In this document: positions 2,603 through 15,393 of the stretch, in pieces
Layout of the letters: every line of letters starts with the position of its first letter
How positions within the stretch are numbered: position 1 is the stretch's first letter
Program-made: the position numbers and the translations under genes
Notes under the pieces: model-generated
Told to the model about the DNA's origin: nothing
Seen by the model: the letters and a program-made list of their open reading frames with translations, nothing else
Database searches by the model: none
Assembly (NCBI GenBank): GCA_028875055.1
Contig: JAPPGG010000027.1
Span: forward strand, 1-64,000
Direction of reading: 5' to 3'
DNA: 64,000 bases
Origin: Chloroflexota bacterium
GTDB taxonomy: Bacteria; Chloroflexota; Dehalococcoidia; Lucifugimonadales; UBA3495

Positions 2603-3898
2603 CTAGTTTCTCCTAGGTGACGGCAATGGAGGCACATCTACTTTGACCTCCTGCCAACTTTCACTACCTTCTGGGGCGACTCTTAAGGTGCATTCTAATA
2701 TTTCTTCATCCCAATCATAGTCAACAACCTCAACCACCTTGTCCTCCACGACTACATCAAACTCGACCCCATAGCGAAGGTCCATATTGCTTTGCATACG
2801 GCACACAACACTTAGTGAATTAAACTCTAGCCTCGAAATTTCTTGAAAGCCGCTTAGATAAACACTACCTAAGTCAGGGTTTCCGACAAATACATCCGGA
2901 GGCACAGAGGGCTTGGTCAAGTGATCTGGCAGATTAATGGCTTCCAAGATCACTGTCCGGAGCGCAGGCAGTTCGCTAAATGTATCCGATTCAACCCGAC
3001 TGACATTGGAAATTTTCAGCTGTTGCAATTTTGGCATGCCGGTCAAGCTCCCGTTTAGCAAAGCTACGGCGTAGTTACTGGCCGAATTCCTTACGCCTAA
3101 GTCGAGAGTTTCCAATTTACTCAATCCTTCAAACATACCCTTTAAGGGTAAAGCCACGACATCTGCCTGCGCTTCTATCCGCAGTTCCAATTGCCGTAGG
3201 GCACTCAAACTCTTGAAAAGGCCGGTTGAAGGCGGTGTCTCTAACACTAACTCCATGTGTTCGAGGCTTTCCAGATCGTCGAATAGGCCCTCAGAGACCT
3301 CTCTGGTAAGCAAGGTCAAGCTGGTCAAGTTTTTGAACCCATCCAGGTCGCCGACTTTCAATGGAATTCTATCGAGTTCCAGCGACCGGACACGTAGGAG
3401 TTCTTCACTGGTTATATCTCTGCAGCGCGTAATGTCAAGCATCTCGATAAGTAGCTGCTGGATTTCGGGTGTCCTGCTGCATATGTTTCGGGTGTCAACC
3501 TCTTGAAGTGTTTCCTCTGCTTCAGGGATATGAGATTGATTCCCCGTCACATCGGTTGAACTGTAGTCCACAACTTCTGTTTCTTCACCTTCACCAATAT
3601 TGCCAGAAATACCTGGGTCGGCCTTGTCTTCGATATTCTCGGACATCTCGCCACTTGAGGTTTCAGTTTCATCTAACTCAAGCGGTGATAAATTCCCTAC
3701 CTTTCCTTCCTCCAAGACCTCATCAATCGACTCGATGGATTTCGATACGGATGGGGCTGAGGGTTGAAAGATAAAGGACTGTCTGAAATCCCCCAGAGCC
3801 TCGTACAACTGGAAAAATGCTACACCAGCGATTACTAATACAACGATACCCACAGTCAGGCAAGCTATTTGCAGGATGGCTCTTATTTCGTTAATCAA
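2603..3898 (-). CDS. Membrane-anchored leucine-rich-repeat-like protein
   Basis: A 431-residue protein with one N-terminal membrane segment (residues about 9-31, LQIACLTVGIVVLVIAGVAF). An acidic, Ser/Glu-rich linker runs to about residue 140. Irregular leucine-rich repeats span about 160-370, recognisable as LTSLTLL, LEHMELVLE, LRQLELRI, LETLDLGV, LQQLKISN and LRTVILEA at roughly 25-30 residue spacing. The topology suggests an anchored protein with an exported repeat domain for protein binding. Base composition is clearly more AT-rich than the flanking genes, suggesting recent acquisition. It ends two bases before the amidase start. Function unknown. Confidence 0.75.
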   Translation of the reverse strand: MINEIRAILQIACLTVGIVVLVIAGVAFFQLYEALGDFRQSFIFQPSAPSVSKSIESIDEVLEEGKVGNLSPLELDETETSSGEMSENIEDKADPGISGNIGEGEETEVVDYSSTDVTGNQSHIPEAEETLQEVDTRNICSRTPEIQQLLIEMLDITRCRDITSEELLRVRSLELDRIPLKVGDLDGFKNLTSLTLLTREVSEGLFDDLESLEHMELVLETPPSTGLFKSLSALRQLELRIEAQADVVALPLKGMFEGLSKLETLDLGVRNSASNYAVALLNGSLTGMPKLQQLKISNVSRVESDTFSELPALRTVILEAINLPDHLTKPSVPPDVFVGNPDLGSVYLSGFQEISRLEFNSLSVVCRMQSNMDLRYGVEFDVVVEDKVVEVVDYDWDEEILECTLRVAPEGSESWQEVKVDVPPLPSPRRN

Positions 3899-4486: not shown

Positions 4487-5734
4487 TTACATTCGGGCGT
4501 CGGCCATCAGGAGCATGTTCAGGAGGGCCTGGGCGCCGTTGGCACAGTCGGCGGGCAGGGTAAATTCGTTGGGCGAGTGGCTGATGCCATCGATGCTGGG
4601 AACGAAGACCATGCCGGCGTCGGTTATGGCGGCGATGGACTGGGCGTCGTGGCCGGCGCCGCTGGGCAGTGACTGGAACTGGAGACCCGCCTGGTCGGCG
4701 GCCTCGGCCACGATGTTCTGCATGCGGGCAGGCATTGGGACGGCGCGGGCGGCCTCGACCTGGTTGATGGAAATTTCGACGCGGTTGGCATCGGCGATTT
4801 CGGCGGCGCTGCGGCGGAGGGTAGTTTCGGCGGCGGACAGGGAGTTGGTATCAACGTCGCGGAACTCCACGCCGAGGGCCACTTCGCCGGGGACTACGTT
4901 GACGGCGTTGGGAGTTACCTGGAGATTGCCGACGGTGGCAACGCGGCAGATTTCGTCCACGGTGGCCAGGCGCTGAGTGGCCAGGACCAGATGGGAGGCG
5001 GCGGCAAGGGCGTCGTGGCGGTTGGGCATGGGAGTGGTGCCGGCGTGGTTAGCCATGCCCGTGACCTGGACCTTGAAGACGAACCGGCCGGTGATGCCCG
5101 TGACGGCGCCGAGGGGAATGCCGGACTGGTGGAGGGTGGGGCCCTGCTCAATGTGGAGTTCGAAGTAGGCGGCCAACTCTCCTGGATAGCGGCGGGCCTG
5201 GTCGATGCGGGAGAGATCGCCGCCGATGTCGGCCAGACGCTGCTCGATGCCGACCCCCTCCTCGTCCACCGCATCGTAGTCCTCAGCTTCCAAAAGGCCG
5301 GCCATGGCGCGGCTGCCGAGGAGCCAGCGATGGAATCGGGTGCCCTCTTCGTTGGTGAAGATGATGAGTTCCAGGGAGTGACGCAGGGTGTGGGCGTTTT
5401 CGGCGAGGGTCCGGGCCACCTCGACGGCTCCGAGGACGCCGAGGGCGCCGTCGTACTTGCCGCCGTTGGGGACCGTATCGGTGTGGGAACCCAGGGCAAT
5501 GGCGGGAAGGGACGGGTCGGAGCCGGGCTTGCGGGCGATGACGTTGCCCGCGGGGTCGATGCGGACCTCCAGCCCCGCCTGGCGCATCAGGCCGGTGACG
5601 TACTCACGGCCCTGGATGTCGAAGGGGGAGTAGGCGAGGCGCATCATGCCCTGGGGAGTTTCGCCGATGCGGCCCAGTTCGGCCAGGGTGCGGTTGAGGC
5701 GGGCGGCGTTGATGTTCAGGGTGGAATCAGTCAT
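4487..5734 (-). CDS. M20 family allantoate/N-carbamoyl amino acid amidohydrolase
   Basis: 415 residues, the usual size of hydantoinase/carbamoylase-type M20 metalloenzymes (allantoate amidohydrolase, beta-ureidopropionase, N-carbamoyl-L-amino acid hydrolase). Di-metal ligands are all visible: His84 in LGSHTDTVP, Asp95 in GGKYDGALGV, Glu129-Glu130 in TNEEGTRF, His194 in ELHIEQGP, and His386 near the end in DGISHSPNEF. The dimerisation domain carries GMANHAGTTPM. It would release ammonia and CO2 from ureido compounds in the cytoplasm, giving access to organic nitrogen. Which substrate it prefers cannot be told from motifs. Start supported by GAGGACGTAGCC before the ATG. Confidence 0.92.
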   Translation of the reverse strand: MTDSTLNINAARLNRTLAELGRIGETPQGMMRLAYSPFDIQGREYVTGLMRQAGLEVRIDPAGNVIARKPGSDPSLPAIALGSHTDTVPNGGKYDGALGVLGAVEVARTLAENAHTLRHSLELIIFTNEEGTRFHRWLLGSRAMAGLLEAEDYDAVDEEGVGIEQRLADIGGDLSRIDQARRYPGELAAYFELHIEQGPTLHQSGIPLGAVTGITGRFVFKVQVTGMANHAGTTPMPNRHDALAAASHLVLATQRLATVDEICRVATVGNLQVTPNAVNVVPGEVALGVEFRDVDTNSLSAAETTLRRSAAEIADANRVEISINQVEAARAVPMPARMQNIVAEAADQAGLQFQSLPSGAGHDAQSIAAITDAGMVFVPSIDGISHSPNEFTLPADCANGAQALLNMLLMADARM

Positions 5735-6148: not shown

Positions 6149-9118
6149 CTAGGAGCCCTCGGTGACCTGGAGGAGGCGTTCGGCGAGGCGGAGGCCGCCA
6201 GCCTTGTCCAGGGGACCGTCGAAGGGCGAGTAGGGGAGCAGGCACCAGGCGCAACCGGAAGCGCACCGGCATTGCCGGGCGAGCCCGGCGCCAAAGGTCA
6301 GGATGTCGCGCCAGAGGTCGAAGGTCTTCTTGGCAATACCCTGGGCGGCGGGGCTGACTTCCACCAGGAAAATGGTGGCCCCGCTGGAACAGGTGGCCAG
6401 GTCGTATTGATTGACCGGGAAGGTGAAGCGGGCGCCCACCCGAAGCATATGCTCCAGGGCGGCGACGCTGCCGTCAGGGGCAGGGGAGTCTTCGCCTTTG
6501 GGACCGGCGGCAACGCTGTCGGCGGCGGCGGAATCCCCGGCAAGCAAGCCGGACAGATCCATCCAGAAGGCCTGGGCGGTCAACTGCCAGGAGATTTCCT
6601 CCTCGGGAGTGAAGGTGGCGGTCACCAGGTCCCGCTCCGATTCCGGAAGGGCTTCGGGGTCTTCGTCGAAGCCGGGATTCCCGGACTCATCGACCACGTC
6701 CACGCTGGTCAGGGTTTCCTCAACGGACACACTTCCCAAGTACAGGGACAGACCCTGGGCGGGGGATAGACGAAGGGACTCTTCGCTGACGGTAACGGCG
6801 GAGTCGAACCTGGGGGTGGTCCTCAAGTTGGCCAGGGCTTCAGACTTTTCCAGGAGGATTTCGGGGGCGCCATCGGAACCCACTCCAGGCTCGATAAAAG
6901 CGGCCCGGTACTTGGCGCCGTCGAAGACAATGACGCTGCCCGGGTAAACCTCCCGGAACTTGCTATAGGGGGAAACAGACCCCAGGTACTCACCCTCGCT
7001 TACCAGGGTCCAATCCTCACGGGAATCTGGCTCCAGCGGAACGGCCTGAGGAGGAGAGGAGTCGTCCTTTTCCAGGGCAGGCGCCTCCCGGCGGAGGGCT
7101 TGGAAGAGGGCGTTTCCCAGGACCTCCCGGGAGAAGGAATATACCCGGCCCTCCAACTCCCGAACGAGGGCCGGCAGGTGGGGACGGATTACTTCGGCCA
7201 GGTCGGGGTCAACCACGGTCCGGTCGGGGGCCTTGGCGAGCAGTGAACCCAGGTTGTGGGCCGCGAACCTGTCGGCGCCGCTGCCAGCGGAGAAAAAGAG
7301 GGCGAACGCATTATCCCGGTCCGTATTGCCGACACCCTCTGCCAGACGGAGGAGGGCGCTCAAATCTCCGGGTTGACCGGCAAGGATGAGGCCGTCGAAC
7401 TGCCGGAGAACGGCAGGGGTGGCCTGGGATACGGTGAGGAAGACGGCCTGGCCGGAAGGCGACAGGGAGCCGGCAGCCTTGCCAGACTGGGGAGGAGCAG
7501 CGGTCTCATCGACACCCAGCACGATACTACCCAGGGCGATACGGCCTTCACCGCCGCCGGACTGGACCAGATTTTGTGCCGCCACAAAGGCGGGCCGGAC
7601 CAGGGACTCGCCGCAGCAGACCGCCACCGACTTGCCGGCATCGGCGCAGGCCAGCGCGGCGCGGGCGAGTCGGTCGGGGAGGTCTGCCAGGCCCGGAGAT
7701 TCCAGGTCCAGGGGGTCAACGAACAGGAAGTGCCGCCCGGGAGCGGAACAGTCCAGGCCCGAAATTTCCTCAAATTTCCTGGAAGTAAGGTTCAGGGCCA
7801 GCTCCCCGGCATTGCCGCTGCCCTGAACTATGAGGAAGGTCTGGGGGTCGGCGCCCAGGATAGCCAGGCGGTGGAAGAGGCGCCGCAGCAGGATGGCGAC
7901 GCTGGCCCCAAAGGCTCCCCGATACTCCTGGGCCTGGTCAAGAATCACGAACCTCAAACTCCGTAGAACCGCCTGCCAACCCTCGCCGGTCGCGGCGAGG
8001 GAGACGTTCAACACCTCGGGCGTGGCGACCAGGACTGTGGGTGACTCGCTGTCGTTGAGGGCGGCGAGGGCTGAACTATCGGCGGAGGCGTCGATGACGG
8101 TTAGTCCGATGGCGGGAAAGAGACTCTCGAGCTGGACGACGGCACGGGAGGCCGCAGGCTCGTCGGGGCAGAGGACAAGGCCGCTGCTTCCGGGGCTGCG
8201 GAGCAGGGCCTCCGCCAGTGGCACAGACCAGGAAAGAAACTCGTCGGAGGAGCGGCAGGCTTCCAGGACCACATTGCCGCCGGCCAGAAGGGCTGCCAGC
8301 GCCTCTTCCTGGTAAGACTGAAGGCGCTCAACATCGAGAGCGGCAAGGGCGCGGATGAGGGCCGGGCCCAGGTCCAGGAAAAGGGGGCTGTCGGGATAGC
8401 GAGGGGGGGCAGCGGGCCGGGTGGCCCGGGCCACATAGTCCTGGTCCCGCAACGCCGACGCATCGACGAGGAGGCGATGCAGTTCCGCCATGAAGGGATC
8501 TTCGTCGGCAGGCTGGGCCACAGGTTCGGCGGATGAAATAGTCCCGGGGGATTCCGCCAGTTCCTCGGTGGGAGCATCGCCAGCCGGCGCGGGAGACGAG
8601 CCAACGTCCGAGGTGGACACGTCGAGGGAGGCGGGCAGGACTTCCTCGGCTTGCTCAATTTCCACCTCGATCTCCGATTCGAGGCACTCGCGCTTGAGCA
8701 TATCCAGCTCCAGCGTGCTGGGGCAGGACATGGCGGCCAGCAGCTGCTGGACCGAGTACAGGACCTGGTAGGCAGTTTCACCGGTGAAATGGTGGCGGTT
8801 GGCCCAGTTTTCGTGGGCCAGGGCGACCTCTCGGACGAGGCCGGGTTCGATGCCGCCCAGGGCGCGGTCGAAGACATTCCACCAGGAGGCCTGGACCACG
8901 GCCAGCAGGTCCTGGGTTTTCATGTTGTGGAAGGGCTTCTGGGCGTCTCGATTCTGATTGAGGATCTGGTTCAGAACGTTAACGACCTGGTCGTCGTGGT
9001 GGCTGGAAAATTCGCGGGGGACGAAATTGTCCAGCTCGAGTTTCAGGAGATAAAGGGCCCTGGCCACCCTGGCGTTGTTGGAAATCACGTTGCGCCTCGA
9101 TTGGATTCTGTGATGCAA
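6149..9118 (-). CDS. Swt1-type HEPN domain fused to degenerate MrfA-like helicase
   Basis: 989 residues. Residues about 15-145 resemble the Swt1-type HEPN domain (RVARALYLLKLELDNFVPRE, NMKTQDLLAVVQASWWNVF, ENWANRHHFTGETAYQVL). A Pro/Glu-rich linker follows. Residues about 255-640 align by pattern with the two RecA domains of MrfA/YprA helicases. The catalytic motifs are lost: the Walker A position (286-294) reads EACRSSDEF, the DEAH position (394-397) DQAQ, the SAT position VQGSG, and the QxxGRxxR region RLAEGVGNTDR. Outside these motifs the family sequence persists, including YRGAFGASVAILLRRL and the C-terminal zinc module CRCASGCAWC (950-959) with LDKAGGLRLAERLL. It is probably a non-hydrolysing nucleic-acid-binding pseudo-helicase, not a decayed gene, since the frame is intact. 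Confidence 0.75.
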   Translation of the reverse strand: MHHRIQSRRNVISNNARVARALYLLKLELDNFVPREFSSHHDDQVVNVLNQILNQNRDAQKPFHNMKTQDLLAVVQASWWNVFDRALGGIEPGLVREVALAHENWANRHHFTGETAYQVLYSVQQLLAAMSCPSTLELDMLKRECLESEIEVEIEQAEEVLPASLDVSTSDVGSSPAPAGDAPTEELAESPGTISSAEPVAQPADEDPFMAELHRLLVDASALRDQDYVARATRPAAPPRYPDSPLFLDLGPALIRALAALDVERLQSYQEEALAALLAGGNVVLEACRSSDEFLSWSVPLAEALLRSPGSSGLVLCPDEPAASRAVVQLESLFPAIGLTVIDASADSSALAALNDSESPTVLVATPEVLNVSLAATGEGWQAVLRSLRFVILDQAQEYRGAFGASVAILLRRLFHRLAILGADPQTFLIVQGSGNAGELALNLTSRKFEEISGLDCSAPGRHFLFVDPLDLESPGLADLPDRLARAALACADAGKSVAVCCGESLVRPAFVAAQNLVQSGGGEGRIALGSIVLGVDETAAPPQSGKAAGSLSPSGQAVFLTVSQATPAVLRQFDGLILAGQPGDLSALLRLAEGVGNTDRDNAFALFFSAGSGADRFAAHNLGSLLAKAPDRTVVDPDLAEVIRPHLPALVRELEGRVYSFSREVLGNALFQALRREAPALEKDDSSPPQAVPLEPDSREDWTLVSEGEYLGSVSPYSKFREVYPGSVIVFDGAKYRAAFIEPGVGSDGAPEILLEKSEALANLRTTPRFDSAVTVSEESLRLSPAQGLSLYLGSVSVEETLTSVDVVDESGNPGFDEDPEALPESERDLVTATFTPEEEISWQLTAQAFWMDLSGLLAGDSAAADSVAAGPKGEDSPAPDGSVAALEHMLRVGARFTFPVNQYDLATCSSGATIFLVEVSPAAQGIAKKTFDLWRDILTFGAGLARQCRCASGCAWCLLPYSPFDGPLDKAGGLRLAERLLQVTEGS

Positions 9119-9274
9119 GGCAGATTATACCTGATTCCCGCCGGGTTGTTGTCGTAATGGGAATGTTGAAGGGCCACACGGGCTCGAGGGCATGAAATTT
9201 TGAAGGCCCGGGCCAGAGATCCAGGCCTTGCCTTGCCGAGACACCGGGGGTTCCCTGGAAGCGGAAAGGGGCGG

Positions 9275-10456
9275 TCAGACCATTACCCTGAAGCCGTAGC
9301 CGGTGTTATTCAGGTCACCTTCGGCAAAGCGGGACATTCGCAGGGGAGTTATGTCAATGGAGGTGGCCTGGCCGTCGAGCATCAATTCGGCCATCAGGGT
9401 TCCGACCATGGGCGACAACTTGAAACCGTGGCCGCTGAAGCCGGTGCAGACGTAGAGGCCATCTATCCCATCCACCGCGTCGATGATGGGATGAGAGTCG
9501 GGGGTGGAAGTGTAGAGGCCGGCGTAGCCACCGCTAAACTCGGCATCCTCCATAGCGGGTATCCGGCGGGCGAGGCGGGTCCAGACTTCCTGGATGAATC
9601 CGGGGCTGGCCCGCTGGGCGAAAACTTCCGGGTCCTCAATTACGTCCTCCATGTTGCCGTTGCCGACGAGGGTCAGGTCGGAGCCTTCGGGCCGGAAATA
9701 TATCCGGTTAAGCAGGTCTCCGCCGCCGGGGTGGTAATCGGGGCCGGCGGGCCCCCGGCGCAGGTGCACAACCTCGTGGCGGGTGGCTTCCAGGGGCAGG
9801 TCGATACCGTGCTGGAGCAGGAACCGGCGGCTCCAGGGTCCGGTGGCGATGACCGCCCTTTCGGTGGCAATGCGGCCCAGGGGGCCGGTGACAGCGGTGA
9901 CCCGGCCGCCGGAGATTTCTATCTCTGTGGCGGGGCTGCCCAGGGCGATGCGCGCGCCCATGTCGCGGGCCCGGTGGGCGAAGGACATGCAGGTGGCGGA
10001 GGCGTCGGCGTAGCCACAGGCAGGTTCGTAGGCGATTGTTCCGCAGTCGTCCAGGTTCCAGCTCGGGGCCAGATCGCGGGCTTCATCGGTGGTAACCAAC
10101 CTGGTTTCGATGCCGACGGACTGCTGCATGGCCACGTTGGCACGGAACAGGTCGGCTTCCGCCTCACTGCCCATTATCAGGTGTCCGGTCCGGGTAAAGC
10201 CGCACTCGCCTCCCACCGCTTCCGCAAAGTTCTGAAAGACTTTGAAGCTCTCCCAGGCCATGCGGGCGTGGACTTCGGTGGAGTAGTGCATTCGAATGGC
10301 TGAGGAAGAACGGCCGGTGGAGCCGGAACCCAGGGAGTCCCGCTCCAGGAGGACGGCATCGGTCATGCCCCGAAGGGCCAGGCTGTGAAGTATGCTGCAG
10401 CCCATAACGCCGCCGCCGACTATTACCGTTTCGGCTGTGACCGGCAACATGGTCAT
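9275..10456 (-). CDS. FAD-dependent amine/amino acid oxidoreductase (DadA/SoxB-like)
   Basis: 393 residues. An N-terminal dinucleotide-binding motif VIVGGGVMGCSILHSLALRG (residues 11-30) is followed by an acidic strand end VLLERD, the standard FAD-binding fingerprint of the D-amino acid oxidase/sarcosine oxidase beta family. GGYAGLYTSTPDSHPIIDAV and CTGFSGHGFKLSPMVG near the C-terminus are typical FAD-cradle elements of this family. It would oxidise a secondary or primary amine to an imine with release of H2O2 or transfer to another acceptor. Substrate not determinable. AGGA precedes the ATG by eight bases. It lies nine bases downstream of the HNH gene on the same strand. Confidence 0.88.
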   Translation of the reverse strand: MTMLPVTAETVIVGGGVMGCSILHSLALRGMTDAVLLERDSLGSGSTGRSSSAIRMHYSTEVHARMAWESFKVFQNFAEAVGGECGFTRTGHLIMGSEAEADLFRANVAMQQSVGIETRLVTTDEARDLAPSWNLDDCGTIAYEPACGYADASATCMSFAHRARDMGARIALGSPATEIEISGGRVTAVTGPLGRIATERAVIATGPWSRRFLLQHGIDLPLEATRHEVVHLRRGPAGPDYHPGGGDLLNRIYFRPEGSDLTLVGNGNMEDVIEDPEVFAQRASPGFIQEVWTRLARRIPAMEDAEFSGGYAGLYTSTPDSHPIIDAVDGIDGLYVCTGFSGHGFKLSPMVGTLMAELMLDGQATSIDITPLRMSRFAEGDLNNTGYGFRVMV

Positions 10457-13339: not shown

Positions 13340-13885
13340 TCAAGCTGACAAAGGGTTGCTGGGGTACCTGTTCCCCAGCTCTTCCAGAATTTCAGTTAAC
13401 TTGCTACCACAGTCCTTCATGAAAATGGTCTTCGGAGCGTCGTTTCTAAATGCGATGCGATTTCTTTGCAGTTGGATATTTCTTACGTACTGTGGACGCC
13501 GTTTTCCAGTACCACTAAACATCAACACGGGGTACCAAGCAGCTACATTTTTTTCTTCCAGGAGTAGTTCTACTGCCTTCATCCCCATTCTGATCTGTTC
13601 AATCGTATCGCTCAAATGGAGGGACATACCACCCTTGAGTTCTATAACGGCAGCCATCAAACCCGACAACGCTTCGATCCGGTGATTCGTGAAAACTAGT
13701 CGATCCGCAATTTTGCTCGAGGAGTCTCCGTGTCTGTCTCGATAGTTCTCTCCGTGGATTATCACTAGTGAGTCAGACCCTATCCCGCTTAGGTCAACGC
13801 TGCAATTTTGATCTTCGCAGTTATCGGTCAAGCAGCAGTCCTGATGAATCTCTCGCAAATCCCCCAGAAATATGGCGGAGGTCAT
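13340..13885 (-). CDS. Putative PD-(D/E)XK-fold nuclease, partner of upstream ATPase
   Basis: 181 residues. The stretch KIADRLVFTNHRIEALSGLM then AAVIELKGGMSLHLSDTIEQI gives Asp61-x20-Glu82-x-Lys84 in a strand-hairpin-strand setting, with a following helix carrying Gln. This is the pattern of PD-(D/E)XK nucleases. The start ATG overlaps the stop of the ATPase gene as ATGA, so the two proteins are translationally coupled and likely act together. The composition is AT-richer than most of the window, like the ATPase. I know no named family for it. Whether it cuts DNA, RNA or is only a structural partner is open. Confidence 0.65.
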   Translation of the reverse strand: MTSAIFLGDLREIHQDCCLTDNCEDQNCSVDLSGIGSDSLVIIHGENYRDRHGDSSSKIADRLVFTNHRIEALSGLMAAVIELKGGMSLHLSDTIEQIRMGMKAVELLLEEKNVAAWYPVLMFSGTGKRRPQYVRNIQLQRNRIAFRNDAPKTIFMKDCGSKLTEILEELGNRYPSNPLSA

Positions 13886-15393
13886 TTAAGTGGAATGCCC
13901 TCCACCAGCATAGTTTCTTCATACTGGTCGTTAACTACTTTGCCGAACTCATCATCGTCAATTCCAACATCCGGGCGAATGGTCAATTCGTCAATCAAGC
14001 TGCCACCCTGGTCATCGTCCCAACGAAACAGATAAGCGCTCACATCCTCACGTTGCAGGCAATCCGACTTTTGGAAACCGTGTTCTTCCAACCATTGTTC
14101 ATTGGCGTGGCTGATTCGCAAGAGGTTGTTTATTTGGTTTAGGAAATAGTCGCTGTGTGTAGTTATAAGCATCTTTACTCCGGCGTTCACCAGCCGAACA
14201 ATGGCCCTAGCCATCTGCCGTTGGGCTGCCGGGTGAAGATGGGACTCGGGTTCTTCCAGGATTAGGAGGTCGCCAGGACTGACTAGGTGCTTTAGGAACA
14301 AGATTATGGGGGCCAGTTCAGAGACCATGGAGGAGGTTTGATTTAGCGCGAACCGACCAATAACGCTCTCACAGCCGTACGGTTCATAGTAGATTTCCGG
14401 GTAAGGAAGTCCAGATTCATGCAAATATATTTTCCCTCGAACCACTTCCTGTTCCAGGAAACTAGTCATTTCGCTTAAACTGGAATCTGTTGTCATACCC
14501 CGTTTTTGGCCTATTGTAAGCAGATGTCCCATAAAATCAGCGATCAAGCCGGAGAATTGTGGGACTTCCATACGCTGAATTCCCGCGAAGGGAGATTGGC
14601 GTATCAACACACTTGCAATGATTCTATGGCCTTGGGCGATGCCCGACCGAGCAGCAGGCAGATAAAAGCTCTTAGGGGGAGAGACTTTCAGCAAATGGGT
14701 CATGACGAGTTCAATCAGCTCGATTAGGAAGTCGCGATACGCATCGTGAACATCTCCTCCAAAACGGTCATGGCCTTCTATGCTCTCGATCAAGTCGCCT
14801 ACCAAGTCGTCTCCAAATACCATACTGTCAAACGGTGAGCCTACGAAATGACATTCAAATGCCTGAGTGTGAAGATTGTCGTTTACCCTTCTTGATTCTG
14901 CCATTGCTATAGATAAACTAGGTTCTTCCTGAAGAAGCTCAATCAGGATCTCAGAGGAGTTAACAGATCGCCTTCGTAGTTGGGGTATTTCTCCTTGGCA
15001 TCTTTGTATTTCCCGGCCAAAAGAAACGGATCCAGACCTCAACTGAGCCAAGACGGTGTCAAACAATAATGCCCTAATTTCCTCAGGAAGATCATCGTAG
15101 TGGAAAGGCCGCGACTCGCGTTCCCAATAGTCGAGATCATTAATCCACCTGCCTATATGTTCTGAGGATTGTTGGACTGCTTCTCTCTCTAGGGCGTTCC
15201 TAGGAACATAGACCCGTCCTGTGCTCAGCCGAGAGAATTTCTCAGGCCCTCGGAAAGCCTGCATCAACGCATAAATCAGCGTCGCCATGTAAGACTTGCC
15301 CGTATTGCTCGGCCCCACAAATATAGTGAGCGGCTTTAATTTAACTGTCCCCTCAACTATGGGGCCGAAGTCTTTGGCAGTTACCTTAAGCAT
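13882..15393 (-). CDS. AAA/ABC-type ATPase with SMC-like signature (AAA_15/21 group)
   Basis: 503 residues. Walker A VGPSNTGKS (26-34) follows LKPLTIFV. The ABC-like signature region is NQTSSMVSEL (351-360), Walker B is LLILEEPESHLHP (376-388), and the H-loop His413 is in LITTHSDYFLNQ. YLPAARSGI (244-252) occurs in many AAA_15-type ATPases of OLD, PARIS and related defence systems. No TOPRIM domain is fused. The ATPase would dimerise on nucleotide and regulate the coupled PD-(D/E)XK-like protein. GC content is below that of neighbours, and the pair sits between two metabolic genes, both signs of acquisition. The start follows a GGAGG-containing stretch. Confidence 0.85.
   Translation of the reverse strand: MLKVTAKDFGPIVEGTVKLKPLTIFVGPSNTGKSYMATLIYALMQAFRGPEKFSRLSTGRVYVPRNALEREAVQQSSEHIGRWINDLDYWERESRPFHYDDLPEEIRALLFDTVLAQLRSGSVSFGREIQRCQGEIPQLRRRSVNSSEILIELLQEEPSLSIAMAESRRVNDNLHTQAFECHFVGSPFDSMVFGDDLVGDLIESIEGHDRFGGDVHDAYRDFLIELIELVMTHLLKVSPPKSFYLPAARSGIAQGHRIIASVLIRQSPFAGIQRMEVPQFSGLIADFMGHLLTIGQKRGMTTDSSLSEMTSFLEQEVVRGKIYLHESGLPYPEIYYEPYGCESVIGRFALNQTSSMVSELAPIILFLKHLVSPGDLLILEEPESHLHPAAQRQMARAIVRLVNAGVKMLITTHSDYFLNQINNLLRISHANEQWLEEHGFQKSDCLQREDVSAYLFRWDDDQGGSLIDELTIRPDVGIDDDEFGKVVNDQYEETMLVEGIPLK

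Follow-up and report, generated by a model that had tools for sequence, protein, structure and literature searches.

A HEPN_Swt1-YprA/MrfA helicase fusion with degenerate catalytic motifs, conserved in a group of Chloroflexota

The closest described relative of the helicase part of the protein studied here is MrfA/YprA of Bacillus subtilis (PDB 6znp, 6znq and 6zns; TIGR03817), in which a RecA1-RecA2 core is followed by a C-terminal MZB domain. For the N-terminal part it is the HEPN-DUF499 ATPase (HmaC) of BREX-related type 1 systems (PMC12839542), which carries an N-terminal Swt1-type HEPN domain with an intact R[N/H]xWAHQ motif. Both parental domains are associated with defence (PMC3710099, PMC12839542), and the literature searched yielded no account of a HEPN-YprA fusion. 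The gene analysed here lies in a stretch of 64,000 nucleotides, referred to as the window. Its product has the domain order of MrfA/YprA, but lacks every ATPase motif and has an added HEPN domain at its N-terminus. It shares the latter with HmaC, but has a helicase in place of the DUF499 AAA+ ATPase.

Gene and domain anatomy

The 989-codon ORF at 6149-9118 (-) is open throughout, in agreement with the original prediction. Translation probably begins with the GTG at 9088, as the six orthologues can be aligned from this codon, with GAGG just before it and TATAAT approximately 36 nucleotides upstream. When the upstream regions of the six orthologues were compared, the TTG of the ORF list was located upstream of this common start, and the GTG is preferred over it because an in-frame TGA separates the two in the orthologue of the second genus (G007). 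No good -35 element was found upstream of the TATAAT, and a sigma-70/terminator scan, the output of which did not include this element, yielded nothing above chance.

The gene almost certainly encodes a Swt1-type HEPN domain followed by a YprA/MrfA-family helicase with an MZB domain. The HEPN_Swt1 profile matched with an E-value of 8.9e-14 (52.2 bits, gathering score 27.5), and the DEAD (1.5e-8) and MZB (2.7e-7) matches were both over the Pfam cut-off. The nearest solved protein is YprA/MrfA, with 8.4e-19 for the single sequence and 1.4e-55 for a five-sequence profile. Both the MrfA/YprA descent and the N-terminal Swt1-type HEPN domain that had been proposed are thus borne out. The RecA1-RecA2 core, the C-terminal MZB/DUF1998 domain and the YprA sequence match make the protein a member of this family by descent, but as an enzyme it lacks Walker A, DExH, SAT and QxxGRxGR. 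Its TIGR03817 (DECH_helic) score was 129 bits, below the curated cut-off of 874, versus 890 bits for a standard MrfA of the same order. The four cysteines of the zinc module are retained in the window protein and in G002, G004 and G007, and two of the four are missing in G001. The predicted structure, calculated from an input alignment of the window protein and one partial orthologue, had a pLDDT of 33 and was not interpreted.

Table 1. Features of the fusion gene and its flanks in the window
Feature	Coordinates	Strand	Basis or remark
HEPN-helicase fusion gene (putative double pseudoenzyme)	6149..9088	-	Probable GTG start, 979 aa; start at TTG 9118 gives the longest open frame
TATAAT, -10-like element	9124..9129	-	Matching position upstream of 6/6 orthologues (sequence comparison)
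GAGG, RBS-like	9095..9098	-	6 nt ahead of GTG start; upstream comparison of orthologues
HEPN_Swt1 domain (PF18731)	8726..9061	-	Pfam
HENWANR replacing HEPN catalytic motif R[N/H]xWAHQ	8795..8815	-	Comparison with other HEPN_Swt1
RecA1-like DEAD domain, degenerate	7877..8317	-	Pfam
ACRSSDEF replacing Walker A/motif I (SPTASGKT)	8237..8260	-	Alignment
DQAQ replacing motif II (DEMH)	7928..7939	-	Alignment
VQGSGN replacing motif III (TATCAN)	7811..7828	-	Alignment
RLAEGVGNTDRD replacing motif VI (QQIGRAGRGWDKD)	7313..7348	-	Alignment; both GRxGR arginines lost
MZB/DUF1998 zinc-binding domain (PF09369)	6239..6457	-	Pfam
CRCASGCAWC	6242..6271	-	Alignment of orthologues
Upstream conserved neighbour, FAD-dependent oxidoreductase (DAO family)	9275..10456	-	
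Downstream conserved neighbour, M20-family amidohydrolase	4487..5734	-	

Motif losses and charge

The window protein and its orthologues were aligned with 18 intact MrfA-type helicases of the same order. In addition to the replacements in Table 1, motif V reads TVSQATPAVL versus TTNALEIGLDV in the intact helicases, and motifs Ia and Ib are likewise degenerate. Every orthologue whose sequence extends that far has lost motifs II, III, V and VI; G003, truncated by a contig end, is excluded from statements on motifs II to VI. Motif II, which is DEMH or DEAH in the relatives, is DQAQ in the window protein and G002, YRAE in G004, DGAQ in G001 and GEMQ in G007. Of the five full-length proteins, only the basal G007 retains Walker A (APPSGGKT), so that the original prediction of a helicase with all its motifs lost holds for the window protein but, as to Walker A, not for the whole family. 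The window protein retains 12 of the 38 motif columns (32%) that are invariant in intact relatives versus 32 of 49 (65%) elsewhere (Fisher p=0.0025); across the pseudo-helicases, 26-45% of the conserved motif columns and 53-80% of the other conserved columns are kept. This is the reverse of what is expected of an ordinary diverged helicase, in which the motif columns would be best kept. As the orthologues share the losses, the possibility that the window gene is a lone mutant was rejected.

In the HEPN domain of the window protein both catalytic positions are lost (R to H and H to N), a more complete loss than the altered motif noted earlier. HExWA[N/S/G]R is found in all six orthologues, none of which has the Rx4-6H arrangement of catalytic HEPN RNases (here R[N/H]xWAH). 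Because five residues of this signature (H, E, W, A and R) never vary although the catalytic residues are gone, the sequences suggest a new constraint instead of drift, and a new role. The H and R of this motif might alternatively act as an inverted catalytic pair, leaving the RNase alive and only the helicase dead. Their invariance, next to a linker that is only ~20-83% identical to that of the window protein, would fit such a relocated site, but R-[N/H]-x-W-A-H-Q is present in every other HEPN_Swt1 compared (more than 30, from 30 loci of the phylum and further ones of the order). We know of no HEPN RNase with an inverted pair, and consider this explanation highly improbable. To judge from the motifs, catalysis by the fusion protein is very unlikely.

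Most of the other HEPN_Swt1 proteins are in frames of 1,100-1,200 amino acids, and the two that were read further on (L021 and L076) have an ATPase-like stretch after the HEPN domain. Such frames match HEPN-DUF499 proteins in size and layout (PMC3710099, PMC12839542). Two further loci were observed: three tandem standalone HEPN_Swt1 genes (205-245 amino acids) with the catalytic RNxWAHQ intact in G044 (L159, 4874-7115), and, in the window's genome (G000:C50, about 98.5 kb; L169, 1286-2944), a 552-amino-acid protein that matches HEPN_Swt1 below the threshold and PADLOC HEC-07 with 5.6e-14.

The helicase half is poor in K/R (5.6-8.7% versus 9.3-13.6% in intact relatives), and its net charge is -54 to -67 within the genus (-36 to -67 over all pseudo-helicases) versus -6 to -19 in intact full-length sisters. 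Per 100 residues, the net charge is -4.5 to -8.1, whereas intact relatives have +0.5 to -3.3 and the products of neighbouring genes -2.1 to -4.8; as these host proteins are acidic too, part of the shift is host background. Of the positions at which the intact sister group has a conserved K/R, only 30-45% still carry K or R, and some basic residues remain (LLRRL, KFR). Since the hydrophobic class is retained in 75-80% of the conserved columns, the fold of the helicase half is probably intact.

These data bear on whether the protein may still hold single-stranded DNA or RNA through its RecA/OB/MZB canopy and act as a roadblock, sensor or regulator. The retention of the MZB cysteines in four of five proteins and the probably intact fold are consistent with this, as are the precedent of Deinococcus radiodurans PriA, which binds DNA without ATPase activity (PMC4504706), and the RNA binding proposed for inactive HEPN domains (PMC3710099). 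The loss of K/R columns, the strongly negative charge and the degenerate motifs Ia and Ib argue against it, and we regard this as a rather unlikely explanation. The nucleic-acid-binding or regulatory pseudo-helicase of the original prediction is a real YprA/MrfA-derived pseudo-helicase, but the case for nucleic-acid binding is weakened, and the acidic, K/R-poor helicase half would favour a protein-binding scaffold or regulator.

Conservation, selection and genomic location

Each of the genus's five genomes carries the gene, as does one genome of a second genus; all six belong to one family. Five copies, including that of the window, are full-length and one is partial, with 39-93% identity. The sole match of a contig search was L033, a partial copy from a Chloroflexota MAG with 92% identity over 363 amino acids. 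The coding frame has no internal stops in the six genomes, and all indels are in-frame. The dN/dS ratio (NG86) between the window and G003 was 0.19 (352 codons), and that between the window and G002 was 0.22; the corresponding values were 0.04 and 0.08 for HEPN and 0.25 and 0.22 for RecA1, and neighbouring genes had 0.10-0.16 in these comparisons. More distant pairs, with dS > 1.3, were not relied on. Neutral simulation at the distance of G002 predicted ~29 stops (minimum 13 in 500 simulations), versus none seen. Purifying selection, as the original prediction had anticipated, keeps the gene at one chromosomal position in two genera, with the HEPN domain under the tightest constraint.

A decaying pseudogene, or a misassembled or misread frame, might account for the loss of all catalytic motifs and for a divergence faster than that of the neighbours (~40% identity between genera versus 74-76%). 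It is contradicted by the absence of internal stops, the in-frame indels, a dN/dS far below 1 and the conservation of the promoter-like element and the start. Both readings are refuted by dN/dS and the stop-codon simulation, and we give them virtually no credence. The shared motif losses, together with the purifying dN/dS, point to a selected double pseudoenzyme.

In a maximum-likelihood tree the pseudo-helicases form one clade (100/100), to which intact HEPN-less helicases (100/99) are sister, with the standard MrfA clade apart; some branches are long and composition is uneven between rows, so that the fine branching is not to be leaned on. This intact sister group, termed m2, comprises orphan YprA-family helicases from the Chloroflexota genomes G001, G003, G028, G056, G079, G090 and G210, with further members in G460 and G560. 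Unlike the window protein they have intact GKT/DEMH/QxxGRxGR motifs and no HEPN domain. With 57-75% mutual identity, no common neighbours and a low GC3 (0.52-0.69), they are apparently mobile. One is near a CBASS locus (cyclase and E1-E2 gene) in G028, and another adjoins a DUF499/HmaC-like ATPase in G001. At the latter locus (L158, 1-7386), this ATPase and an AbiLi-like AAA gene are upstream of the helicase on the same strand, and the helicase may be a partner for the DUF499/HmaC-like system. A constant partnership between the pseudo-helicase and an intact paralogue was rejected, as the paralogue occurs only in G001 and G003. Searches of ~250 genomes from the order and of 400 from the phylum revealed no intact HEPN-YprA fusion; since each species was represented by a single genome, this result carries limited weight. 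No relatives were detected in viral contigs, and plasmids yielded only ordinary DEAD-box stretches, in cyanobacteria.

In G000 (the window's genome), G002, G004 and G007 the gene lies between the FAD oxidoreductase and the M20 hydrolase; in G001 and G003 one side is cut off by a contig end. These fixed flanks are metabolic and not a defence island, and no conserved defence partner was found at the locus; the operon genes of Druantia/DISARM/ARMADA-type systems (DruA, DrmB, methylase, BrxHII, nuclease) are missing there, and PADLOC gave only weak matches to the protein. There is no MrfB-like gene beside it. The MrfB-type exonuclease profile PF13482 had weak matches (~1e-5, frames of 589-988 amino acids) in most of the genomes, a stronger one in G002 (843-amino-acid frame) and none in G003, so that a strong match is lacking from G007 and from every genome of the genus but G002. 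The suggested sensor in a defence system therefore finds no support in the location, only in ancestry.

The dead HEPN might nevertheless poison the HEPN of an active HEPN-DUF499 protein by pairing with it, or the protein might be a bait that senses phage anti-defence proteins. Its closest HEPN relatives are of the HEPN-DUF499 kind with an intact motif, and the intact sisters of the helicase half have the defence-type neighbours mentioned above for G001 and G028. But in five of the six genomes the only HEPN_Swt1 above the cut-off is that of the pseudo-helicase gene, G007 having one other, weaker match, and the metabolic neighbourhood and stably inherited position also make a decoy or immunity factor improbable.

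In 18 other genomes of the family the slot between the FAD and M20 genes is empty (G018, ~0.4 kb) or has other cargo, and tblastn with the pseudo-helicase gave no match in any of the 18. A divergent copy in the equivalent slot of other genera, suggested by a spacing of 2.8-2.9 kb, was rejected. According to genus, the slots (L130-L147) are empty or contain TPR-like, PIN-type toxin-antitoxin or ABC transporter-like genes. With the same flanks and 18 slots lacking the gene, this comparison indicates that the common ancestor of the two genera acquired it by insertion or retained it, and that inheritance has been vertical from then on.

Other observations concern the genome of the window. At 13340-15393 (-) of the window, a gene for a 503-amino-acid ATPase (PADLOC PD-T4-4_A, 1.7e-48) overlaps by 4 bases a gene for 181 amino acids without matches; this block, with a GC3 of ~0.50-0.54 versus ~0.8 nearby, is likely a defence insertion between metabolic genes. 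At 2603-3898 (-), an LRR-type protein with one N-terminal hydrophobic segment (GC3 0.49) is 46% identical to its G002 counterpart. Contig G000:C42 (L168, 2593-9254) has a Druantia-like pair, DruA (3.9e-133) and DruE (8.9e-281), adjoining a ParB-domain gene; this DruE is a YprA-family helicase still with its MZB.

Proposed role and comparison with known systems

On balance we lean towards a domesticated, non-catalytic double pseudoenzyme that would serve as a scaffold or regulator. The HEPN fold would dimerise or dock the fusion protein. The two inactive RecA domains and the OB-CON-MZB canopy would hold a protein partner or a regulated target without using ATP, acting as a scaffold and neither as motor nor as RNase. 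A likely order of events is a fusion of HEPN and helicase, then the loss of hydrolysis and HEPN catalysis before the two genera split, and finally, in the genus of the window, the disappearance of nucleotide binding (Walker A) together with a further increase in acidity. More tentatively, two defence enzymes may have been fused, silenced and fixed as a resident housekeeping or regulatory factor with the invariant H-E-x-W-A-x-R, which might bind proteins as a hub or permanently inhibit HEPN toxins. If so, parts of defence systems (HEPN RNase and YprA helicase) could be converted into a stable cellular component, the protein would represent the MrfA architecture in a natural form that lacks a motor, and G007, which still has Walker A, would be an evolutionary intermediate.

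The fusion of a PaREP1/8-type HEPN with an inactive Vasa-like ATPase in Caenorhabditis (PMC3710099) is similar in that a wholly or partly inactive HEPN is joined to an inactive helicase ATPase domain. It is eukaryotic, with other HEPN and helicase families and a single helicase domain, and is thus a convergent parallel, not an ancestor. The PriA pseudohelicase of D. radiodurans is likewise a bacterial SF2 helicase retained in a lineage where its motifs have been lost, but it belongs to the PriA family and has no HEPN domain. That bacterial pseudohelicase of the literature searched is a single dead enzyme, whereas in the protein described here two unrelated nucleic-acid enzymes are joined, both apparently dead.
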